Shown piece after piece: positions 576 through 31,695 of a stretch of 31,695 bases of DNA (its first letter is position 1; each line of letters begins with the position of its first letter). Source of the DNA: a virus; the IMG/VR virus record IMGVR_UViG_3300031673_000310, positions 1-31,695 of that record. The stretch is one strand, 5' to 3'. The notes under the pieces are model-generated. The model saw only the letters and a program-made list of their open reading frames with translations. It was not told where the DNA came from and did not search any database. Made by a program: the position numbers and the translations under genes.

Positions 576-1199
576 ATGGAAGTAGTAGAACGAAAAATAA
601 AGGATTTAATCAAAGCAGAATACAATCCAAGAGAATTAACGAAGGACCAGGAAAATCAATTAAAAGATTCTTTAAAAAGATTTGGAATAGTTGATCCAGT
701 AATAGTGAATGTTAATAAGGAGAGAAAAAACATTATAATTGGAGGACACCAACGAACTAAAGTTTGGGAAATGTTAGGAAATAAAACAATTCCAACAATT
801 GAATTAGATCTTACTTTAGAAAAAGAAAAAGAATTAAACGTTCGTTTAAATAAAAATACTGGACAATTTGATATGGACCTACTCCAGGAACATTTTAATA
901 CTGATGATTTAATAGAATGGGGGTTTGATGAAAAAGATTTAATAGAAAAAGAAATTGATGAACTTGAAGAAGGAGAAGATATAAAAATTGAAAAATCTTT
1001 ACAAGTTTTACCAAAAAAAGAATATATTATTATTATTGCAGATGAAGATTCTGATGAATGGGAGGAGCTAAAAACAATTTTTTCTTGTGGCCTTGTTAGA
1101 CAAGGAGGATGTAAAATTGGATCAACAAGCGATAAAGCAACAACTGGATTAGAACGAGTATTTGACCTAAAAACATTTAAACAACGTGTCGGAATTTAA
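576..1199 (+). CDS. ParB/Srx-fold nuclease-like protein (free-standing ParB N-terminal domain)
   Basis: 207 residues from the ATG at 576. An upstream in-frame ATG at 504 is rejected because it lies inside the Cys-rich gene. The N-terminal 90 residues are a ParB N-terminal domain: an IKDLIKAEYNPR entry motif, a helix LKDSLKRFGIVDPVIV, and the signature GGHQR (56-60) followed by KVWEMLG. In many phages this domain is fused to a DNA methylase. Here that part is replaced by an acidic linker and a compact C-terminal region (about 148-207). The gene overlaps the glycosyltransferase downstream by 14 bases, implying joint production. Roles known for phage ParB-fold proteins include DNA binding, nuclease or CTPase activity and association with base-modification gene sets. 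Partitioning is unlikely because no ParA is present. Confidence 0.85.
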   Translation: MEVVERKIKDLIKAEYNPRELTKDQENQLKDSLKRFGIVDPVIVNVNKERKNIIIGGHQRTKVWEMLGNKTIPTIELDLTLEKEKELNVRLNKNTGQFDMDLLQEHFNTDDLIEWGFDEKDLIEKEIDELEEGEDIKIEKSLQVLPKKEYIIIIADEDSDEWEELKTIFSCGLVRQGGCKIGSTSDKATTGLERVFDLKTFKQRVGI

Positions 1200-1908
1200 A
1201 ATTTGTATTCCTTCTAAAGGAAGGGCTGGATTAATTACCTCTCAAAATATTTTTAAATCTGCAACTTTATTTGTTCCAGAAAGTGAATTAATGCAATATT
1301 CGCATTATGAAAACCCAATTGTTAAAGTTCCTAATGAAGTAAAGGGTATAACTGCAACAAGAAACTGGATATTAAAAAACACAAAAGAAAACGTTTTTTT
1401 TCTTGATGATGATTTACAATATGGAGGCTATATTGAAAGAACAGATTATAAATACAAAGTTAAAAGAGTAAAAGAGGAATATATTTATTTAAGAGAAATA
1501 GAAAAACTTTTTGATGTTTGCAATCAAATGAACTCAAAAATATTTGGATTTTTTACGGTTAATAACAATTTAACAAATTATAGTTTTAACCCTTTTTTAT
1601 TTAATGGAGTTTGTTTAGGATCTTGTATGGGAATCGTTAATGATGGAACATTTTATTTTGATGAATCATACGAAGTAAAAGAAGATTATGAATTAACTTT
1701 AAGACATATAAAACAACAAGGCCTAACGGTCCGTTCAAACATATTATTTATGCAACACGAACATACTCAATTGAGAGGTGGTTGTAGAGATTCAAAAAGA
1801 ATAGACAAAGAGAAGGCAGCAATAAAAAGATTAATAAAAGAATATCCTGGAATGATAAAAGAGGCTAAACATAGGGGAACTTCTTTTAGTATTCAATTAA
1901 ACATATAG
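1186..1908 (+). CDS. GT-A-type glycosyltransferase, possibly TAGT/GREB1-like
   Basis: 240 residues beginning at a GTG that overlaps the ParB-like gene. Motifs: IPSKGRAG (8-15), typical of the nucleotide-sugar-binding start of this group; ATRNWI (57-62); a DDD metal-binding site in FFLDDDL (71-77); an ED pair (166-167) where GT-A enzymes place the catalytic base; and a late RGGC (197-200). This pattern fits GT-A folds and resembles the TET-associated glycosyltransferases that phages encode beside ParB, terminase and base-oxidising enzymes. The family assignment is from memory of motif layout. The acceptor is unknown: modified DNA bases would fit the neighbourhood, but no TET/JBP oxygenase or hydroxymethylpyrimidine synthase is visible. 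A protein or surface-sugar acceptor remains possible. Confidence 0.6.
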   Translation: MSEFKICIPSKGRAGLITSQNIFKSATLFVPESELMQYSHYENPIVKVPNEVKGITATRNWILKNTKENVFFLDDDLQYGGYIERTDYKYKVKRVKEEYIYLREIEKLFDVCNQMNSKIFGFFTVNNNLTNYSFNPFLFNGVCLGSCMGIVNDGTFYFDESYEVKEDYELTLRHIKQQGLTVRSNILFMQHEHTQLRGGCRDSKRIDKEKAAIKRLIKEYPGMIKEAKHRGTSFSIQLNI

Positions 1909-1910
1909 TT

Positions 1911-2252
1911 ATGAAAACGACAAAAACGGACATAGTAAAAAAGAAAATGATTGAAGCTTTAGAAAAATCTTTAGGAATCGTTACAACTGCTTGTAAAATG
2001 GCTGAAATTGCAAGAAGTACTCACTATGAATGGATTGAAAAAGATCCAGAATATAAAAAGGCCGTTGAAGATATTGCAGAAATTGCAATTGATTTTGCTG
2101 AAAGTCAGTTACACAAACAAATAAAAGATGGTTTACCAGGATCAACTATTTTTTATTTAAAAACTAAAGGCAAAAAAAGAGGCTATATTGAAGCACAAGA
2201 ATTTAAAGTTGATTTAGATAAAAACCTTCCTTCCTGGATGAATGAAGAATAG
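1911..2252 (+). CDS. Terminase small subunit (HTH)
   Basis: 113 residues. The N-terminal half has a helix-turn-helix reading as ALEKSLGIVTTACKMAEIA then STHYEWIEKDPEYKKAVEDI, close to the phBC6A51-type HTH found in terminase small subunits of phages of Firmicutes and Bacteroidota. The following helices (IAEIAIDFAESQLHKQI, then GSTIFYLKTKGKKRGY) match the oligomerisation part of these proteins. It lies directly upstream of the large subunit, where it would recognise the packaging site and stimulate the ATPase. Length is normal for the family. Confidence 0.8.
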   Translation: MKTTKTDIVKKKMIEALEKSLGIVTTACKMAEIARSTHYEWIEKDPEYKKAVEDIAEIAIDFAESQLHKQIKDGLPGSTIFYLKTKGKKRGYIEAQEFKVDLDKNLPSWMNEE

Positions 2253-2319: not shown

Positions 2320-3441
2320 TTGGCTGCAAATCCTAATTTTATACATTTAAAAAAGAAAATACCAACTGATAGGTATATTTTGCTTCAAGGAGGAACAAGA
2401 TCTGGAAAAACATATTCAACAATTTATTTTATTATTTGGCTTTGTACTCAATATAAAGGATTAACTATTGATATTGTAAGAAATACACATAGAGCATTAA
2501 TTGATACGGTCTGGAAAGATTTTAAAGATGTTTTATTAGAGTTAAACTTGTATCACCCAGATAAACACCACAAAACAGATAAAATCTATAATTTAAACGG
2601 TAATGCAATAAGCTATTATGGAGCAGATGATCCAGGTAAAATACACGGTAGAAAAAGAGATATACTTTGGTTAAATGAGGCACATCAATTTGATGAAGAA
2701 ACAATTGATCAACTATTTCCAAGAACAAAATACAGAATTATAATGGATTACAATCCAGCAATGCCAACAGAACATTGGCTTGATCCATATATTGATGAAT
2801 TTCCTCCATTAATTACAACCTATAAAGATAATCCATATTTAAGCATTGAGCAGATAAACGAAATTGAAAGGAAAAAAAATAATCCTTACTGGTGGAGTGT
2901 TTACGGTACTGGAGAAAGAACAAAACCAACTGGTATTATATTTAATAATTGGGAATTTGGAGAGTTTGATAATTCACTTCCTTTTATTTATGGAATGGAT
3001 TTTGGATATGTAAATGATCCAAGTAGTTTGGTAAAACTTGCAATAAATAAAGATAAACTTTACACAAAAGAATTAATTTATGAAACTAATTTATCAACTG
3101 ATGATTTAGATCAAAGATTAACTGCTTTAATTGAGAATAAAGAAAGTTTAATTGTTGCTGATAATGCAGAGCCAAGACTTATTTATGAACTCCAGGAAAA
3201 AGGCTGGAATATAATACCTTGTCGTAAAGGGCCAGATTCAGTTCGTTTAGGTCTGGTTAAAATGATGGATTATACAATAATTGTAGAGAAAGAAGATCGT
3301 AATATGATAAAAGAATTAAACAACTATGTTTGGAATGATAAAAAAAGTAATACTCCTTTATCTAATGGCAATGATCATTTAATTGATGCTTTGCGTTATG
3401 GATTTGAAGAAGTAGCTGGTAACAATTTTTTCTTTATTTAG
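2320..3441 (+). CDS. terL: Terminase large subunit
   Basis: 373 residues, an ATPase-nuclease that drives DNA into the prohead and cuts it. Walker A is GGTRSGKT (24-31) and Walker B is ILWLNEAH (115-122) with the catalytic Glu. The RNase H-like nuclease half has GMDFG (225-229, Asp 227), VADN (Asp 281) and HLIDALRY (353-360, Asp 356), so all three acidic clusters are present. It resembles the terminase_3/XtmB group. The start must be the TTG at 2320: the frame is closed by TAA at 2314-2316, just upstream, and no ATG lies near. Use of a rare start may lower expression. Confidence 0.97.
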   Translation: MAANPNFIHLKKKIPTDRYILLQGGTRSGKTYSTIYFIIWLCTQYKGLTIDIVRNTHRALIDTVWKDFKDVLLELNLYHPDKHHKTDKIYNLNGNAISYYGADDPGKIHGRKRDILWLNEAHQFDEETIDQLFPRTKYRIIMDYNPAMPTEHWLDPYIDEFPPLITTYKDNPYLSIEQINEIERKKNNPYWWSVYGTGERTKPTGIIFNNWEFGEFDNSLPFIYGMDFGYVNDPSSLVKLAINKDKLYTKELIYETNLSTDDLDQRLTALIENKESLIVADNAEPRLIYELQEKGWNIIPCRKGPDSVRLGLVKMMDYTIIVEKEDRNMIKELNNYVWNDKKSNTPLSNGNDHLIDALRYGFEEVAGNNFFFI

Positions 3442-17270: not shown

Positions 17271-19028
17271 ATGGCCGAAAACACAATAAATACCAGAGAA
17301 TCTTTTGAAATTAACGGATTAACCGTTAATCCTCCAGTAGAATGGGCTGATATTGAAATTGAAGCTTCATTTGACAATGATAATATTCAACCAAATATTA
17401 CTATTGATACTTTTAGATTTGTAAATAAAGAGGCCACAATATTAAAAGACTGGATTAATAACGGTTTTCCTGGAATATTTGAGGGTATTCCATTTAAAAT
17501 AAAGGGCTTTAACAATACAAATAATTTATCTGTTTTCGATGGATTTATAAATTTGTCAGATGATGTTTCACTTTTAGAAGATGGATCTGTTAATGCTAAA
17601 GTAATCAAGAAAGATGGTTTAAATAATTTACAAGATAGATTAGATGCTTTAACTTTTGGTTTCCTGGAGGACATAGGCATAATAAATTCTTCAAATTATA
17701 CAACAATAGATTACGTTGTTGAAAAAAAAATAAATGCAGTTGAATTAATTATTTCAAATGTTGTTTTATTTTTAATGATTAAAGAATTAGCTGAATCAAT
17801 TGAAAGAGTTGCTACTGATATTGCAACTGGAATAGCTTTAACTTCTATTCCATTAGGAGGAGCAATTGGAGCAGTTGTTTGGTTTGCAGCAAAAGCATTA
17901 ATCAATTTATCTTATGCAATTGTTTTATTGGCAGCAGTTATTAACTTAGCAAATAAACTTTTTCAATTGTTATTACCTCCAGTAAGACAACATAAGGTTA
18001 TGAAGTTAAGAACGGCAATGGAACGAGTTTGCATTGCTTTAGGTTATAATTTTGTAAGTCCAATTACGGAATTAGACGATGTTTATTTTTTACCTTCAAA
18101 TCCAAGACAAGATAATGTTAGTTTATTAGATGGATTAATTACAACTTATAAAGGAACACAATCTGGAATACCAAATCAAATTGATTTTGGTTATGGTTGT
18201 GGCGAATTTTTCCAGGTAATGAGAGAATTATTTAATGGTAAATATGCAATAGTTGGTAATGATCTACATTTAAGAAGTTTAAATGATCCATATTGGGTAA
18301 AAACTTCAACATATCAATTACCAGATGTATTAATTGAGGAGCAGAAATATAACACAAATGAATTAAATGCAAGATGGTCTTTAGATTTTAAAATAGATTT
18401 AAGAGATGATTGGACAATAGATAATTATGTTGGATCTTCATTAGAAAGAGTTACTGATGCTATAACCGTAAATAATTTAAAAGCTAAATATTTAAAAGGT
18501 ATAGAAGAAATCCAAATACCTTATGCTTTAGGTAACAGAAAAGATCAATTAAATGCAGTTGAAAACACTTTAAAAGTTGTGGCTGGTTTAATAGATTCGG
18601 TAACTGGTGCTTTTGGATCTGGAACTAACTTTGTTTCTACAATGAATAATAAAGTTGGAATGTTAAAGGTAAGCGATAATTCACATTCAATACCTAAATT
18701 ATTATTTTTGAAAGGAGGTAAAATACCAGTTAATGATCGTGTTTCTTTTTCTGCTCCAAAAATGTATCAAAAATACTGGAATGAGAGTAGTTGGGTAACA
18801 AACGCAAATAAAAGGCAAAGAAAAGTTTATAATAATGTAAGAATACCTTTTGGATTAAATGATTTTGTGAAGCTAATTGATAATAATTACATAACAGATT
18901 CAAACGGTAATCTTGGAAGGGTTTTAAATATTAGCTGGAATTTATTTTCTGATTATGCTACAATAACATATTATACAGAATTTAAATATGCTCCAAACTT
19001 AAAAGAAACTTTCATAATAGCACAATAA
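17271..19028 (+). CDS. Tail hub/distal tail protein with hydrophobic insert
   Basis: 585 residues, placed right after the tape measure where distal-tail and hub proteins lie. Residues 1-150 look like a beta-rich N-terminal domain (FEINGLTVNPPVEWADIEIE, VFDGFINLSDDVSLLEDGSV). Residues about 155-236 are strongly hydrophobic with three helices (AVELIISNVVLFLMI; GGAIGAVVWFAAKALI; AIVLLAAVINLANKLF). The rest is again beta-rich, with a domain at about 360-585 (YQLPDVLIEEQKYNTNELNA; PFGLNDFVKLIDNN). A membrane-like insert is unusual for a hub protein and may take part in host-membrane contact. Function by position. Confidence 0.65.
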   Translation: MAENTINTRESFEINGLTVNPPVEWADIEIEASFDNDNIQPNITIDTFRFVNKEATILKDWINNGFPGIFEGIPFKIKGFNNTNNLSVFDGFINLSDDVSLLEDGSVNAKVIKKDGLNNLQDRLDALTFGFLEDIGIINSSNYTTIDYVVEKKINAVELIISNVVLFLMIKELAESIERVATDIATGIALTSIPLGGAIGAVVWFAAKALINLSYAIVLLAAVINLANKLFQLLLPPVRQHKVMKLRTAMERVCIALGYNFVSPITELDDVYFLPSNPRQDNVSLLDGLITTYKGTQSGIPNQIDFGYGCGEFFQVMRELFNGKYAIVGNDLHLRSLNDPYWVKTSTYQLPDVLIEEQKYNTNELNARWSLDFKIDLRDDWTIDNYVGSSLERVTDAITVNNLKAKYLKGIEEIQIPYALGNRKDQLNAVENTLKVVAGLIDSVTGAFGSGTNFVSTMNNKVGMLKVSDNSHSIPKLLFLKGGKIPVNDRVSFSAPKMYQKYWNESSWVTNANKRQRKVYNNVRIPFGLNDFVKLIDNNYITDSNGNLGRVLNISWNLFSDYATITYYTEFKYAPNLKETFIIAQ

Positions 19029-26247: not shown

Positions 26248-26278
26248 TTGTTTTGTATTGTATTTATATATACATTTG
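26248..26278 (+). promoter_or_regulatory. Early promoter, Bacteroidota sigma-ABfr type (copy 1)
   Basis: TTG (26248-26250), 20 bases, then TACATTTG (26271-26278) matches the -33/-7 consensus TTG-N19-21-TAnnTTTG. It is followed by TAGGGAATTAA. The first gene starts at 26303, giving a short leader. It lies right after the late terminator and should drive the operon 26303-31592. A near-identical copy ends the window. Confidence 0.85.
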
Positions 26279-26302
26279 TAGGGAATTAAAAAATTAGAAA
26301 CT

Positions 26303-26980: not shown

Positions 26981-27439
26981 ATGGAATTAAAAGATTTAAA
27001 AAAAGTATTACCGTACAAATGGAGAGTGCAAAGTGCAAATCAATGGGGTGCAACTTGTGTTGCATATATTGATGCAAGAGATGTTCAAGATTTATTAGAT
27101 GAAGTTGTTGGACCTCAAAATTGGCAATGTAGATATTCAGAACACAAAGGAAATTTATTTTGTGAAATAGGTATTAAATGCCAAGAAGATTTTGATGGTT
27201 TTATTTGGAAGTCAGATTGTGGAACTGAATCAATGGTAGAAAAGCAGAAAGGAGAAGCTTCAGATGCTTTTAAAAGAGCAGCCGTAATGTGGGGGGTTGG
27301 AAGGTTTTTATATAGTTTAAAAGTTATTAAATTAGATGTTATTCAAAGTAATGGTAAATATTATCCAGCATTTAATGGAAAACAATTATCTGGAGATCAA
27401 ATAACAAAAGCTTGTGAATATAAACTAAAAAATAAATAA
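26981..27439 (+). CDS. Rad52-like single-strand annealing protein
   Basis: 152 residues matching the Rad52/22 family: YIDARDVQDLLDEVVGPQNW (29-48), CEIGIK (61-66), then the region DCGTESMVEKQKGEASDAFK (79-98) followed by RAAVMWGVGRFLY (99-111). These pieces form the DNA-binding ring of such proteins, which anneal complementary strands in phage recombination. No exonuclease partner is seen nearby, but NinB and NinG lie later in the same operon. Eukaryotic Rad52 is much longer; short phage Sak proteins are this size. Confidence 0.83.
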   Translation: MELKDLKKVLPYKWRVQSANQWGATCVAYIDARDVQDLLDEVVGPQNWQCRYSEHKGNLFCEIGIKCQEDFDGFIWKSDCGTESMVEKQKGEASDAFKRAAVMWGVGRFLYSLKVIKLDVIQSNGKYYPAFNGKQLSGDQITKACEYKLKNK

Positions 27440-27440
27440 A

Positions 27441-27722
27441 ATGGGTTTACCAAAAACAGAAAACAGAAAGATTTTAGATAAGTTAAATTTTGATGCTTTA
27501 TTAAAAAATTATTCTTTAGATGAATTAGCAGATATATTTGCAGTAACAAAAACTATGATTCATACTGCTGCTTCAGATTATTATACTAAGAAAAAAAGAA
27601 TAAATGATATTTTAAGTAATCCTAAATTTGTAATTTCTGAAGAAGATTTAAAAATTCCAGAAGGTATTTGGATGAAATCAGAAGAAAGAAAATTTTTAAA
27701 AGCATTTAGAAATGAATGTTAA
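27441..27722 (+). CDS. Small HTH-like protein
   Basis: 93 residues. The segment SLDELADIFAVTKTMIHTAASDY (about 25-47) has the shape of a helix-turn-helix (ELADIFAV then TKTMIHTAASDYY). The end is basic (KSEERKFLKAFRN). It lies right behind the annealing protein and before a possible promoter, so it could be a transcription factor or DNA-binding helper. Family not recognised. Confidence 0.5.
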   Translation: MGLPKTENRKILDKLNFDALLKNYSLDELADIFAVTKTMIHTAASDYYTKKKRINDILSNPKFVISEEDLKIPEGIWMKSEERKFLKAFRNEC

Positions 27723-27770
27723 AAGATTTTATTCTTACGAAAAAAAATATATACTTCATTTAGAATTTTA

Positions 27771-27778
27771 TATATTTG
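27771..27778 (+). promoter_or_regulatory. Possible TAnnTTTG promoter before replication gene
   Basis: TATATTTG lies 52 bases before the ATG at 27831 in a 108-base gap (27723-27830) that holds no gene. No TTG at -33, so the evidence is moderate to weak. Confidence 0.35.
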
Positions 27779-27830
27779 AATACGTCAATCTGAATCGTTG
27801 GCAATTCAAAATTTATTTAAACTAAAAAAT

Positions 27831-28526
27831 ATGGCACAAGACAAAAAAAGTTTTATTCTTTATTCAGACTTAATTCATACGGTTAAACACCTAACAAATG
27901 AACAAGCTGGAGATCTATTTAAACATATTTTAGAATATGTTAACGATAATGATCCAGTAAGTGAAAATCCAATTACTAATATAGCTTTTGAGCCGATTAA
28001 ACAGCAGCTAAAAAGAGATCTTAAAAAGTTTGAAGATGTAAAGGTCAAAAGAAGTATAGCTGGTAAAGCAAGTGCTGAAAAAAGAAAACAAAATTCAACA
28101 AATTCAACAAGTGTTAAAAGTGTTAAACAAACCTCAACAAATCCAACTGATAATGATAATGTAAATGATAATGTAAATGATAATGTAAATGTTATTGTTA
28201 ATGTAAATGATATTAATAAAAGAAAAGAGGAATTTAAAAATTCCTTAATCCCTTTTTTAGAGTTGTATAATAAAGATTTATTAAATGAATTTTTTAGTTA
28301 TTGGTCTGAAGCTGGTCTAAAAGATAGAAAAATGAGATTTGAAAAAGAAAAAAGTTTTGGCCTGGACCGAAGATTAATTACCTGGAAAAAAAACAAAGAT
28401 AAATGGAGCAATGAAAATAAAAAACAAACATTTAGCGAGGAAGTTTTAGGTCAAGAAAAAGCAAATCAATTGATGGATCTTTTAAATCAAAATGATAATA
28501 TTAACGATCAAAAGAATTTGTTATGA
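27831..28526 (+). CDS. DnaD-like replication initiation protein
   Basis: 231 residues from the ATG at 27831; a TTG start at 27798 would add 11 residues without support. The N-terminal 70 residues (KSFILYSDLIHTVKHLTNEQ, then AGDLFKHILEYVNDND) match the DUF6291-like N-terminal domain of phage and plasmid replication proteins. A low-complexity linker follows (residues 93-127), including DNVNDNVNDNVN encoded by 12-bp repeats. The C-terminal region (about 130-215, LNEFFSYWSEAG, GLDRRLITWKKNKDKW) resembles the helical DnaD-like end. It probably opens or marks the origin and recruits host helicase. Confidence 0.7.
   Translation: MAQDKKSFILYSDLIHTVKHLTNEQAGDLFKHILEYVNDNDPVSENPITNIAFEPIKQQLKRDLKKFEDVKVKRSIAGKASAEKRKQNSTNSTSVKSVKQTSTNPTDNDNVNDNVNDNVNVIVNVNDINKRKEEFKNSLIPFLELYNKDLLNEFFSYWSEAGLKDRKMRFEKEKSFGLDRRLITWKKNKDKWSNENKKQTFSEEVLGQEKANQLMDLLNQNDNINDQKNLL
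28155..28190 (+). repeat. Three 12-bp iteron-like direct repeats inside replication gene
   Basis: GATAATGTAAAT occurs three times head to tail without gaps (28155-28166, 28167-28178, 28179-28190). It encodes the DNVN repeats of the linker. Phage replication genes of the DnaD type often carry the origin inside the gene as AT-rich iterons, so this is an origin candidate. It could also be just a slippage-prone linker. Confidence 0.6.
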
Positions 28527-29164
28527 GAATCAAAAATTTACCAAAAGATCAAATAGAAACTTTAATCCAGGCAGTAGCAATTAGGTATAGAGTTAAAACA
28601 GATCAAATTAATACAACATTAATTAGGCAAACACTACAAGCAGAATTTAACAATATGTTTGTTAATGAATTTAATGAAGCATTTATAAAACATTGTGCTG
28701 GTAGATTTATGATAAGCAAAGAAGCAGAAGGAAACAAACCTTATGGAGATTTATCTTGCTTATTTGTTTGTAATGTTTTAAAAGCATTTAAATCCTGGAA
28801 ACAAGCTGAAAATGCAAAACCAAAGCTAATTACTCCAGATAAACAATTAGAAATGCCAAAAGAGAATATAAGAGATGCTTATGAATTTATTAAAAAAGTA
28901 GTTGATGAAACAAATAATTTGCCAATAGTTGCAAACTGGAATGATGCTTTTTTATATATGGAGCAAGAAGGTATAATAAAAATTGATCTTGATGAAAAAA
29001 TTATGTTTTCTGAAATAGTAAAAGAAGATTTATTAGATGAAATTAAATTTTTGAAAAAAGAAAGAAAAAATGGTTATCAAGATTTAATAAAGATTCTGGA
29101 AAATAAAAAATTATTTGCCGGAGAGTTAAGGAAAAGATATTTACAAAAGTATTTTGAAAACTAA
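28523..29164 (+). CDS. Replication-associated protein, unknown
   Basis: 213 residues, helical. The start overlaps the replication gene stop by ATGA. Residues 1-90 (EFNEAFIKHCAGRFMI, LFVCNVLKAFKSWKQ) and 115-210 (YEFIKKVVDETNNLPIVANW, LLDEIKFLKKERKNGYQDLI) look like two helical domains joined by a Lys/Pro linker. Helicase loaders commonly sit in this slot, but there is no Walker motif, so it would not be a DnaC-type ATPase. An iteron-binding or loader role is plausible. Confidence 0.55.
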   Translation: MRIKNLPKDQIETLIQAVAIRYRVKTDQINTTLIRQTLQAEFNNMFVNEFNEAFIKHCAGRFMISKEAEGNKPYGDLSCLFVCNVLKAFKSWKQAENAKPKLITPDKQLEMPKENIRDAYEFIKKVVDETNNLPIVANWNDAFLYMEQEGIIKIDLDEKIMFSEIVKEDLLDEIKFLKKERKNGYQDLIKILENKKLFAGELRKRYLQKYFEN

Positions 29165-29165
29165 A

Positions 29166-29193
29166 ACAACTAAACTAAAATGAGTAAACTAAA
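29166..29193 (+). repeat. Repeated leader, copy A
   Basis: ACAACTAAACTAAAATGAG and the next bases (to TAAACTAAA) recur with small changes at 29891-29923 and in part at 30099-30121, always around a gene start. See findings. Confidence 0.7.
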
Positions 29194-29290
29194 AAAACTA
29201 CTTAACAAGAAAGTTAATCCAGCTTCTGAATTTGAATTAGCTATATTTACTGCAATAGGATTTGTAATAGCATTAATAATAATATTGTAA
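29180..29290 (+). CDS. Single-TM membrane peptide (36 aa)
   Basis: 36 residues with a basic start (SKLKKLLNKKVN) and one strong membrane helix (AIFTAIGFVIALIIIL) at the end. Preceded by the repeated leader. A positive-inside rule would place the N terminus in the cytoplasm. Such short phage membrane peptides include superinfection-exclusion proteins; no family is recognised here. Confidence 0.5.
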   Translation: MSKLKKLLNKKVNPASEFELAIFTAIGFVIALIIIL

Positions 29291-29323
29291 CGTTAAATGT
29301 AAGATTTGTAAAATATACGGATT

Positions 29324-29506
29324 ATGAAAAGACCATACTTAACACAATTTCAAAGACAACTAATAACAGCAGGAACTTTAACAGGCGACTGTACGATGTT
29401 AGGATTTAGATTTAAACAACTTGAAAAGGCTATAATTGAAAGCCCAATTGGTAGTATATTTTATAAATTCTTACATAGTGTTATTAAGCGTTTAAATGAT
29501 TTATAA
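29324..29506 (+). CDS. Small accessory protein, unknown (60 aa)
   Basis: 60 residues, basic and aromatic (MKRPYLTQFQRQLITAGTL, then FKQLEKAIIESPIGSIFYKF). The 33-base gap before it holds no clear element. Possibly an amphipathic helical peptide. No match known. Confidence 0.45.
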   Translation: MKRPYLTQFQRQLITAGTLTGDCTMLGFRFKQLEKAIIESPIGSIFYKFLHSVIKRLNDL

Positions 29507-29533
29507 CGAAGGGTAATAAGGAAAGAAAAAATT

Positions 29534-29680
29534 ATGGAAAGATTAGCAAATAAATCAGTAAAGGAATTAAAGGAAATTAGAGAGCAATATATTGGACAAT
29601 ACATTGGTGACTTTAATAAGCCTTGGAACTACGAACAAGAATTAAAGCAATTAGATAAATTGATAGCACAAAAGGAATAA
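29534..29680 (+). CDS. Small accessory protein, unknown (48 aa)
   Basis: 48 residues, helical and charged (MERLANKSVKELKEIREQYI, then NYEQELKQLDKLIAQKE) with a short aromatic turn (DFNKPWNY) between the helices, giving a helical hairpin. It is followed by the gap with two hairpins. No family recognised. Confidence 0.45.
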   Translation: MERLANKSVKELKEIREQYIGQYIGDFNKPWNYEQELKQLDKLIAQKE

Positions 29681-29700
29681 TTTTTATTTTCTTTATTACG

Positions 29701-29731
29701 TGTTATGTGCTTTTTTAATTGCATCATAACA
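29701..29731 (+). other. Hairpin 1 in intergenic gap
   Basis: TGTTATG (29701-29707) pairs with CATAACA (29725-29731), plus TGC/GCA inside after one unpaired T, around a 10-base TTTTTTAATT loop. The 229-base gap 29681-29909 carries this and the next hairpin, two very short ORFs of 12-18 codons that I do not support as genes, and the second copy of the repeated leader. Confidence 0.6.
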
Positions 29732-29733
29732 AC

Positions 29734-29768
29734 TTGTGTAAGATTTCGTTTTAATGAATTTTACACAA
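29734..29768 (+). other. Hairpin 2 in intergenic gap
   Basis: TTGTGTAA (29734-29741) and TTACACAA (29761-29768) are perfect inverted copies with a 19-base loop, only two bases after hairpin 1. Could be an operator for a dimeric regulator or part of a structured RNA. No T-tract, so not a classic terminator. Confidence 0.55.
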
Positions 29769-29890
29769 TGTTATTGTTAGTGTTTGTTATACTTAAAAAC
29801 ATATAAAATGATGGAAAAAGCCATTATTATACGCAAATACATATACTAAAGATGGTTAAAACAAACATTAATTACAACAACCGAATAAAC

Positions 29891-29923
29891 ACAACTAAAC
29901 TAAACTAAAATGAATAAACTAAA
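29891..29923 (+). repeat. Repeated leader, copy B
   Basis: ACAACTAAACTAAACTAAAA then the ATG at 29910 followed by AATAAACTAAA. Same element as copy A at 29166, with one extra CTAAA unit. Placed over the start of the next gene. Confidence 0.7.
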
Positions 29924-30098
29924 TTTTGAGGATTGGAAAAAAGAATGTAAACGTATAATTTACGAAACAACAAGCGAAGTTGAATATGAGATAGCTAAGT
30001 TTAATATTGAATGTGTTGATGAATGGGATTGGCTGTTTGAAAATGGACTTTCGCCAAAGGATGCAATACAAGAAGCCTATGATAATACTGAAGAATAA
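29910..30098 (+). CDS. Small acidic accessory protein (62 aa)
   Basis: 62 residues, acidic and rich in Trp, Glu and Asp (NFEDWKKECKRIIYETTSEV, then CVDEWDWLFENGLSPKDAIQ). Two Cys are 24 residues apart. Acidic small proteins encoded in early phage cassettes can mimic DNA or bind host enzymes, but nothing specific is shown here. The start lies in the repeated leader copy B. Confidence 0.5.
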   Translation: MNKLNFEDWKKECKRIIYETTSEVEYEIAKFNIECVDEWDWLFENGLSPKDAIQEAYDNTEE

Positions 30099-30121
30099 TA
30101 AACTAAACTAAAATGAGTAAA
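30099..30121 (+). repeat. Repeated leader, copy C
   Basis: TAAACTAAACTAAAATGAG and TAAA follow the stop at 30098 and include the ATG at 30113. It shares its core with copies A and B. Confidence 0.7.
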
Positions 30122-30418
30122 GATAAAAATACTAACGATTATATTCGACTATTAGAATGTAGGGTAAGAGGATATAGTGAAGCTATTGAAGACCAACAAC
30201 AAAAAATAGAGCAACTTGAAAAAGAGGTTGAAAGGTTAAGAGTAGATAATTACCATTTAGAAAACAATATGAAAATATCGGAAGAACGTGTTAAAGAGTT
30301 AGAGGGGGAAAGCGAACAGTTAGTTAGCAACTGTTCTTGTATAAGTAGAGACACTTTAACTCCTGAAGCAAGAAAAATGTTTGACGATATAGATAAAGCA
30401 TTGGAAAGAAAGAAATAG
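30113..30418 (+). CDS. Coiled-coil accessory protein (101 aa)
   Basis: 101 residues. A long heptad-rich coil covers about residues 20-65 (AIEDQQQKIEQLEKEVERLR and on), followed by a Cys pair in SNCSCISRD and a helical end (MFDDIDKALERKK). An 8-bp inverted repeat (GAACAGTT at 30314, AACTGTTC at 30329) lies inside. The start is in leader copy C. A structural scaffold or regulator is possible; unknown family. Confidence 0.6.
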   Translation: MSKDKNTNDYIRLLECRVRGYSEAIEDQQQKIEQLEKEVERLRVDNYHLENNMKISEERVKELEGESEQLVSNCSCISRDTLTPEARKMFDDIDKALERKK

Positions 30419-30431
30419 TTGCTAACAACCA

Positions 30432-30447
30432 AATAAACAAACAATGA
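30432..30447 (+). repeat. 16-base leader repeat, copy 1
   Basis: AATAAACAAACAATGA occurs here over the start of the 64-residue gene and again at 30623-30638 over the start of ninG, 16 of 16 bases identical. Confidence 0.7.
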
Positions 30448-30638
30448 AAGCAAAAGTAGGCGACACAATAGAATGGGATTTTAAAGATGATAAGTTTAAA
30501 GATTATCCAAAGCATCTTAAAAATAAAACATTTCAATCTAAAGTAGTTATTGTAAATAAGGATTGTTATGGTGTTTATGCTGAATATGGACAAGACTTAA
30601 TACCTTTTGGTGGATGTAAAATAATAAACAAACAATGA
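30444..30638 (+). CDS. Small beta-type protein (64 aa)
   Basis: 64 residues, with KVGDTIEWDFKDDKFKDYPK then SKVVIVNKDCYGVYAEYGQD and IPFGGCKIINKQ. The alternating strands resemble a small SH3-like barrel. The gene lies between the coiled-coil protein and ninG and ends within copy 2 of the 16-base repeat, so the last residues (NKQ) are encoded by it. No family recognised. Confidence 0.55.
   Translation: MKAKVGDTIEWDFKDDKFKDYPKHLKNKTFQSKVVIVNKDCYGVYAEYGQDLIPFGGCKIINKQ
30623..30638 (+). repeat. 16-base leader repeat, copy 2
   Basis: AATAAACAAACAATGA, identical to 30432-30447, straddles the end of the small beta-type gene and the ATG of ninG at 30635. Confidence 0.7.
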
Positions 30639-31189
30639 GATGTAAGAATTGTAATAAAAAATTTGATCAATATGAATTTAATAACAAGTTCTGCAAAGAA
30701 TTAAACTGCCAAACGGCCAAAGGTTTGTATTTGCTGGAGAAAAAAAAGGCAAATGATAAGAAGGCCTGGAGAAAAGAAAAAGCAGTTAGGAAGGCTAATT
30801 TAATGACAATTCAAGATTGGTTAAAAATTACACAAGTTACATTCAATAATTACATTAGGTTAAGAGATCAAAACGAAAATTGTATTAGCTGCAACAATAA
30901 ACTAAGAAAAGGAAATATTGATGCTGGACATTATTATAGTGCTGGAGGACATTATAATATAAGGTTTAATGAATTAAATGTTCATTCGCAATGCTCCAGG
31001 CCTTGTAATAAAGATAAATCTGGAGATCTTATAAATTACCGATTTGGTTTAATTAAAAGAATTGGAGAAGATAAAGTAAATTATTTAGATAGTATTGCAC
31101 AACAAACCAGGAAGTTTACAATTGATGAATTAAAATCTATAAATGAAGAATATAAATTGAAAATAAAGGAATTGAAAAATGAAATATGA
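30635..31189 (+). CDS. ninG: NinG/Rap-like recombination endonuclease
   Basis: 184 residues, close in size to lambda NinG. An N-terminal Cys set (C3, C6, C20, C25) can bind zinc. The core is CISCNNKLRKGNIDAGHYYS (83-102) followed by RFNELNVHSQCSRPCNKDKS (110-129), with Cys and His that are the NinG/Rap signature. Rap cuts branched recombination intermediates. It follows the accessory cassette and overlaps ninB by 11 bases. A partner annealing protein is encoded upstream at 26981. Confidence 0.9.
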   Translation: MRCKNCNKKFDQYEFNNKFCKELNCQTAKGLYLLEKKKANDKKAWRKEKAVRKANLMTIQDWLKITQVTFNNYIRLRDQNENCISCNNKLRKGNIDAGHYYSAGGHYNIRFNELNVHSQCSRPCNKDKSGDLINYRFGLIKRIGEDKVNYLDSIAQQTRKFTIDELKSINEEYKLKIKELKNEI

Positions 31190-31592
31190 TTTAAGCAATA
31201 AAATGGATTTGAATAGCTATAAAGAGAGAGCAAATTATTTAGCTAAAAAAGGATCAAAGGTTGAGTTGAAAGAAATAAAAAAGATCAGATCAATTAAACA
31301 AAATTCATATTTGCACGTTTGTATTAGTTTGTATGCAATCGAATTTGGATATACTATTGACGAGGTTAAAACAGATTTAAAAAGAGGTTGCTCCTTTATG
31401 AGCTATGAAAAAAAAGGCCGTAAATATTTAAAAAAAACTTCTCAAATGAATACTGAAGAATTAACAAAGTTTATAGAATGGATTAGAAACTTTGCTGCTT
31501 CTGAAGGTTTATACATTCCAGGAAGTGAAGAATACCTGGAACATAAATTCAATATTGATAGATTAATAGATCAACACAAAGAATTTCTTTAA
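31179..31592 (+). CDS. ninB: NinB/Orf-like recombination mediator
   Basis: 137 residues. RSIKQN (37-42) corresponds to the RSLDQN of lambda NinB, and the later pieces (EFGYTIDEVKTDLKRG, KKTSQMNTEELTKFIEWIRN) follow the same order as NinB, ending EYLEHKFNIDRLIDQH. In lambda, NinB (Orf) helps load annealing proteins and replaces host RecFOR functions. Pairing with ninG and a Rad52-like protein gives a complete phage recombination set. A few extra residues precede the first Met of the family start. Confidence 0.78.
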   Translation: MKYDLSNKMDLNSYKERANYLAKKGSKVELKEIKKIRSIKQNSYLHVCISLYAIEFGYTIDEVKTDLKRGCSFMSYEKKGRKYLKKTSQMNTEELTKFIEWIRNFAASEGLYIPGSEEYLEHKFNIDRLIDQHKEFL

Positions 31593-31607
31593 ATTTAATA
31601 TTCCTGG

Positions 31608-31615
31608 TTTTCAGT
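31608..31615 (+). promoter_or_regulatory. Shared upstream box of early promoter (copy 2)
   Basis: TTTTCAGT 69 bases before the -7 element at 31677, matching copy 1 at 26205 (66 bases before its -7). Possible operator or activator site. Confidence 0.35.
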
Positions 31616-31652
31616 AATTACGTTTTTTATTCAAAAAAAGTTTACATTATAC

Positions 31653-31684
31653 TTGTATTGTATTTGTATTTTAGTTTATATTTG
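31653..31684 (+). promoter_or_regulatory. Early promoter copy 2 at the window end
   Basis: TTG (31653-31655), 21 bases, TATATTTG (31677-31684), then TAGGGAATTAA as in the copy at 26248. The gene it drives lies beyond the end of the window or, if the molecule is circular, at position 8. Confidence 0.85.
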
Positions 31685-31695
31685 TAGGGAATTAA

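Follow-up and report, generated by a model that had tools for sequence, protein, structure and literature searches.

The two genes directly upstream of the terminase genes in this virus encode a ParB-fold protein and a glycosyltransferase of the TAGT family, which raises the question of what the transferase acts on when no enzyme that prepares its acceptor is seen beside it. To our knowledge, all well-described DNA TAGT pathways begin from a hydroxylated pyrimidine, and the known phage DNA sugars are attached to bases first hydroxylated by another enzyme. A first-pass annotation had found neither a TET/JBP oxygenase nor a hydroxymethylase here, and had treated the pair as an odd case missing its partner.

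The window, i.e. the whole stretch of DNA analysed, is a linear virus record of 31,695 bases without end repeats. The ParB and TAGT reading frames overlap by 14 bases and are immediately followed by the genes of the terminase subunits TerS and TerL (Table 1), just as the first-pass annotation had described, and the motifs it quoted for both proteins are present. Comparison with a sister contig (L002), which is 99.97% identical to the window across 11,905 bases, revealed that the window is an incomplete genome, both ends of which are joined by L002; the contig supplies 1,522 bases that are absent from the window, between window position 31695 and base 1. Read from two near-identical contigs and not from a finished assembly, the molecule would be circular or circularly permuted, with a length of ~33.2 kb. 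L002 also carries a DNA methylase gene ~590 bases upstream of the ParB gene. Relatives of this methylase are found in L009, L014 and L019; as only some relatives have kept one, the methylase lies outside the ParB-TAGT module. Given this separate gene, the earlier suggestion that the C-terminal region of ParB replaces a methylase does not hold for the genome as a whole. A ~30-base repeat of 88-93% identity, at window positions 26267-26296 and 31654-31695 and at L002:697-744 and 112-127, is possibly an intergenic regulatory site. The right end of the window (26981-31592) encodes a Rad52-like annealing protein, NinG and NinB, an ordinary phage recombination set. The tail-region protein at 17271-19028 is 28-29% identical to Flavobacterium phages, which points to a flavobacterium-like Bacteroidota as the probable host.

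Table 1. Features of the ParB-TAGT locus and its surroundings (positions refer to the window unless L002 is given).
Feature	Position	Strand	Remarks
ParB-fold protein	576..1199	+	207 aa from ATG 576; frame open from GTG 504
ParB/Srx-like head, predicted to bind a nucleotide	residues ~1-120 of 576..1199	+	PF02195; model matches ParB/Noc/Srx/SerK structures
ParB C-terminal tail, residues ~136-207	981..1196	+	SLQVLPKKEY...VRQGGCKIGS...ERVFDLKTF; co-varies with TAGT
TAGT-family GT-A glycosyltransferase	1186..1908	+	240 aa, GTG start
IPSKGRAG motif, TAGT residues 8-15	1207..1230	+	N-terminal half; kept in alignments
DDD (D74-D76), DxD-type metal/nucleotide-sugar motif of TAGT	1405..1413	+	invariant in 62 sequences
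ED (E166-D167), predicted catalytic/acceptor-site acidic pair of TAGT	1681..1686	+	invariant in 62 sequences
Terminase small subunit TerS (context)	1911..2252	+	phrog_4044, E 6e-8
Terminase large subunit TerL (context)	2320..3441	+	PF04466, E 3e-20; PF17288, E 2e-15
Window end, identical to L002:1-127	31569..31695	+	L002 bridges onward to window base 1
DPPYGG N6/N4-type DNA methylase, 225 aa	L002:958-1635		PF01555, E 9e-17

Profile search assigned the TAGT protein to PF20691, with an E-value of 1.1e-14 (55.4 bits, against a curated cut-off of 27.5), and to phrog_842 ('beta-glucosyl-HMC-alpha-glucosyltransferase') with an E-value of 7e-21; PF20691 is matched by 62 of 62 homologues. A PDB sequence search with the TAGT profile yielded no match, so the fold assignment rests on an AF2 model (pLDDT of 88 and pTM of 0.88) and a Foldseek search with it. 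The search returned GT-A enzymes, with TarP (PDB 6h1j) as the best PDB match at an E-value of 2e-6, as anticipated for the 240-residue protein, and the structural neighbours include the polymer glycosyltransferases TarP, TarS and RmlT. These GT-A matches agree with the placement of phage TAGTs beside GT2 enzymes in PMC13216743. Residues P9, S10, R13, D74-D75-D76, E166-D167, H193, G199 and C200 are invariant among the 62 homologues, which go down to 39% identity. The dN/dS of TAGT against its relatives is ~0.07-0.17 where computable, and a decayed glycosyltransferase was rejected on account of this purifying selection. As judged from sequence and model, TAGT is very probably an active enzyme. 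In one contig (L036:47-760), TAGT is broken by one in-frame stop into two reading frames (8-433 and 437-760), through either decay or a sequencing error. Scanned with the TAGT profile, bacterial genomes gave no match in set A1 and matches to only two metagenome-assembled contigs in set A3.

The ParB-fold protein consists of a head and a C-terminal tail connected by a linker (residues ~126-145) of low model confidence. It matches ParB_N (PF02195) with an E-value of 4e-8 (33.6 bits, curated cut-off 26.3) and phrog_620 with an E-value of 3e-30, in line with the family proposed earlier. The model of the head matched the CTPase domains of ParB and Noc, with weaker matches to sulfiredoxin and the serine kinase SerK; its residues R19, G57 and N92 are invariant, and R60 is nearly so. 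In a Pfam search of the protein, ParB_N was the only match, with no helix-turn-helix domain and no match for the tail, and the 207 residues gave no methylase match outside the head, hence no fused methylase. A partition ParB was rejected, given the lack of a helix-turn-helix match and a TIGR00180 partition-protein score of 28.3, far under the cut-off of 58.45. An anti-phage defence gene was rejected likewise, as PADLOC matches ParB through a methylase model only, and TAGT not at all.

More than 100 contigs contain the pair, a recurrence that, together with the purifying selection on TAGT, is far beyond chance. With TAGT as the sole query, 81 distinct loci including the window were identified, 76 of which were counted as having upstream sequence. 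The ParB tail lies directly upstream of TAGT in 75 of these 76, at TAGT identities down to 38%; the 76th is L036, whose contig begins ~47 bases before the broken TAGT, leaving 75 of 75 testable loci with a ParB tail. Two loci that seemed to lack ParB (L006 and L022) proved to be an artefact of ORF picking. ParB as query identified 80 loci, and at least 25 of the contigs had already appeared in the TAGT search; the start of TAGT lies between -23 and +14 bases relative to the ParB stop in 80/80, and ParB without TAGT occurs in none of them (0/80). The coupling seen by the first-pass annotation thus extends well beyond this virus: ParB and TAGT form a strict, widespread two-gene module. One 44-kb contig (IMGVR_UViG_3300024346_000136) has two ParB-TAGT pairs (L178, 1-5207; L180, 31467-37072).

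Because the window is incomplete, the absence of a partner cannot be judged from the window alone; the added piece, however, is likewise without an oxidising partner. An oxygenase hidden in the missing part was rejected, as the 1,522 added bases encode the methylase and no recognised oxygenase. Searches with PF12851, PF00303 and PF00145 (TET/JBP, thymidylate-synthase hydroxymethylase and C5-methylase, respectively) detected none of these in the window or in sister contig G001, in agreement with the initial reading. No TET/JBP (PF12851) was detected in any of ~70 records (the window, L002, Javan291, Selwyn23 and over 60 others); Tonitrus, the positive control, did give a match. TET/JBP gives the TAGT family its name; genomic association with it plays no role in how the PF20691 profile is defined. 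The thymidylate-synthase family occurs in one of 47 ParB-TAGT records (L059), in addition to the control LuckyBarnes, and a C5-methylase in one record among those scanned. Fragments make up many of the searched records, so that an absence from any one of them carries little weight; Javan291 and Selwyn23, however, were deposited complete, and 11 compared records are 30-59 kb long or bridged. Among these 11, the only families present in at least five are ParB (10) and TAGT (9); G044 and G052 were not placed in the TAGT family in this comparison, an effect attributed to the borders of the regions and to an overlapping ORF on the opposite strand. At the level of sequence searches, being without a recognised base-oxidising partner is the rule for the ParB-TAGT module, and the pair is no odd case that has lost its partner.

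The known relatives differ from the pair in their partners. The characterised member of PF20691 is the enzyme of phage T6, by which glucose is added to glucosyl-hmC DNA (PMC13216743). It shares with the window TAGT the Pfam family, the GT-A fold, the DDD and ED motifs and a small size; however, T6-type TAGTs follow a first glucosyltransferase on hmC DNA, whereas the window has no recognised hydroxymethylase and ParB is always present. Solitary TAGTs without an alpha/beta-GT were counted in 288 of 753 phage genomes, as possible novel transferases; they are likewise without other DNA glucosyltransferases, but the passages on them in PMC13216743 give them as a count, with no mention of a ParB partner with a co-varying tail. 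The thymidine hypermodification set of Rhodococcus phage Tonitrus (PMC11955845) also has a ParB-like gene beside DNA-modifying enzymes, yet it possesses TET/JBP, aGPT-PPlase and a kinase, whereas the window pair is without TET/JBP; a ParB tail of the window type was not found in Tonitrus. Cultivated Microbacterium phages of cluster EC (Selwyn23 genes 84-86) share the order of a ParB-like gene followed by a TAGT relative. Their TAGT is diverged (30% identity in a tblastn match to L086, under the Pfam reporting level), and their ParB tail gave a weak match (E 8e-5 in a 5-sequence search), the Javan291 tail being not significant. Unlike in the window, the EC pair is not beside the terminase and is accompanied by an extra UDP-glucose dehydrogenase; two glycosyltransferases and a UDP-glucose dehydrogenase have been noted in this cluster (PMC7302621). 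In Selwyn23, gene 86 (L093:6561-7343), a shortened UDP-glucose dehydrogenase-like gene after ParB-TAGT, may supply the sugar donor, which hints that the sugar in cluster EC is derived from UDP-glucose. Brevibacterium phage LuckyBarnes encodes a long thymidylate-synthase-like protein followed by two TAGT genes (L094:3535-6699); in contrast to the ParB-TAGT arrangement, no ParB is annotated beside them.

We propose that the pair is probably a ParB-guided phage DNA glycosyltransferase module, whether the acceptor is supplied by a hidden enzyme or glycosylated directly. TAGT would be a metal-dependent GT-A transferase that uses a nucleotide sugar as donor, and ParB would recruit it by physical contact through the conserved C-terminal tail. 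The swappable ParB head, presumably binding a nucleotide, would place TAGT on its putative DNA target, probably late in infection, next to packaging. The acceptor would be either a base made reactive by a not-yet-recognised phage or host enzyme, or an unmodified base. The former version, in which such an enzyme makes 5-hydroxymethyl-pyrimidine or a similar base and the pair only adds the sugar, fits the well-described DNA TAGT pathways, none of which is known to begin with anything but a hydroxylated pyrimidine (PMC13216743), as well as LuckyBarnes, where a thymidylate-synthase-like gene accompanies two TAGTs. We regard it as somewhat unlikely, given the absence of TET/JBP and the near absence of thymidylate-synthase genes from the records searched, and the lack of any gene beyond ParB and TAGT common to even five of the 11 larger records: the hidden enzyme would have to differ from phage to phage, or come from the host. 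The latter version would be a self-sufficient two-gene system with a ParB-fold clamp, in which TAGT sugars an unmodified base (e.g. at an exocyclic amine) with no prior hydroxylation; we hold this to be distinctly unlikely.

The main, though indirect, argument for DNA as the target is the exchange of ParB heads. Identity to the window head is 60-64% for three sister heads (GGHQR type) and 44% for the ParB domains of ParB-DNA methylase fusions of Firmicutes phages (phrog_498; PADLOC MTase_II PDLC03229), compared to ~28-36% for most other TAGT-linked heads. These fusions have a ParB head like that of the window, but their payload is the fused methylase, whereas the window has a separate TAGT and a specific tail. 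Javan122 has a ParB-methylase ahead of terS, a placement before the terminase genes similar to that of the window pair, and in Javan291 a ParB-TAGT pair sits just before TerL. This suggests that, at one and the same genomic position in phages, ParB heads may serve various payloads that modify DNA. The Javan291 gene annotated as a DNA modification methylase (Javan291_0034, L091:5393-5983) has only ParB_N in Pfam, and is the ParB partner of the adjoining TAGT.

The main rival to DNA glycosylation is that TAGT acts on a non-DNA acceptor, such as a protein of the virion or host, or a polymer on the host surface, with ParB as the acceptor itself or as its nucleotide-regulated chaperone. Against the DNA reading, the genome has no recognised enzyme that makes a hydroxylated pyrimidine or its precursor, and the structurally closest GT-A folds, those of TarP, TarS and RmlT, act on teichoic acids and other polymers. 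ParB is acidic (pI 4.9) and TAGT basic (pI 8.8); as ParB is acidic and has no Pfam helix-turn-helix, its direct binding to DNA stays putative. The position of the pair at the start of the late genes and the UDP-glucose dehydrogenase added in the Microbacterium EC phages also favour a non-DNA acceptor. Yet the PF20691 members of known activity act on DNA (PMC13216743), and DNA methylase fusions share the ParB heads, so that we consider this rival unlikely.

Recruitment of TAGT by ParB is suggested by the co-variation of the two proteins. The pairwise identities of TAGT correlate strongly with those of the ParB tail (r=0.90, partial r 0.86), compared to r=0.52 (partial r 0.17) for the ParB head. 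Along ParB, the correlation with TAGT rises in a step at residue ~130, from ~0.45-0.5 to 0.75-0.84, which coincides with the low-confidence linker. The identity correlation between the two halves of TAGT itself is 0.89, near the values of the ParB tail. The tail can thus be regarded as belonging to the TAGT unit, as might be expected of the specificity or recruitment part that the C-terminal region had been proposed to be. As the tail belongs to the part of the gene nearest TAGT, genetic linkage may contribute to this correlation. That the co-variation is mere linkage in a mobile cassette, without functional contact, is improbable, however: the correlation steps up at the linker with no gradual rise, ParB never occurs without TAGT in 80 loci, and the opposite flank of the module varies between loci in its inserted genes and its TerS, which is of different families, so that the tail and TAGT mark the limits of the cassette. 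The step at a domain border is therefore better explained by function than by linkage. Turning from the tail to the head, it is very improbable that ParB is itself the chemical partner, activating the acceptor with a nucleotide (e.g. by phosphorylation) like the same-fold sulfiredoxin and SerK, since, for all the fold matches to these proteins, a weak SerK profile match, the strict pairing and the conserved head residues, the fold includes plain ParB CTPases with better scores, and the head is the variable, swapped part, ill-suited to a dedicated catalytic step.

The family membership of each protein was already known. What is new, as far as the literature compared shows, is that the two genes are obligately paired, that the ParB tail co-varies with TAGT and that TET, the namesake, is systematically absent; a 2013 paper, reportedly the source of the TAGT name, may mention such pairs. 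Altogether, an entire, widespread branch of the TAGT family is accompanied by a ParB-fold protein and lacks a recognised hydroxylating enzyme. If DNA is modified by ParB-guided glycosylation, the pair would represent a minimal two-gene modification system in which either the acceptor chemistry is new or the supplier is hidden, and possibly a new route to evade restriction and CRISPR. If DNA is not modified, the role of the TAGT family would be wider than DNA decoration. The diverged version of the pair in cultivated Microbacterium phages makes both outcomes testable in the laboratory.
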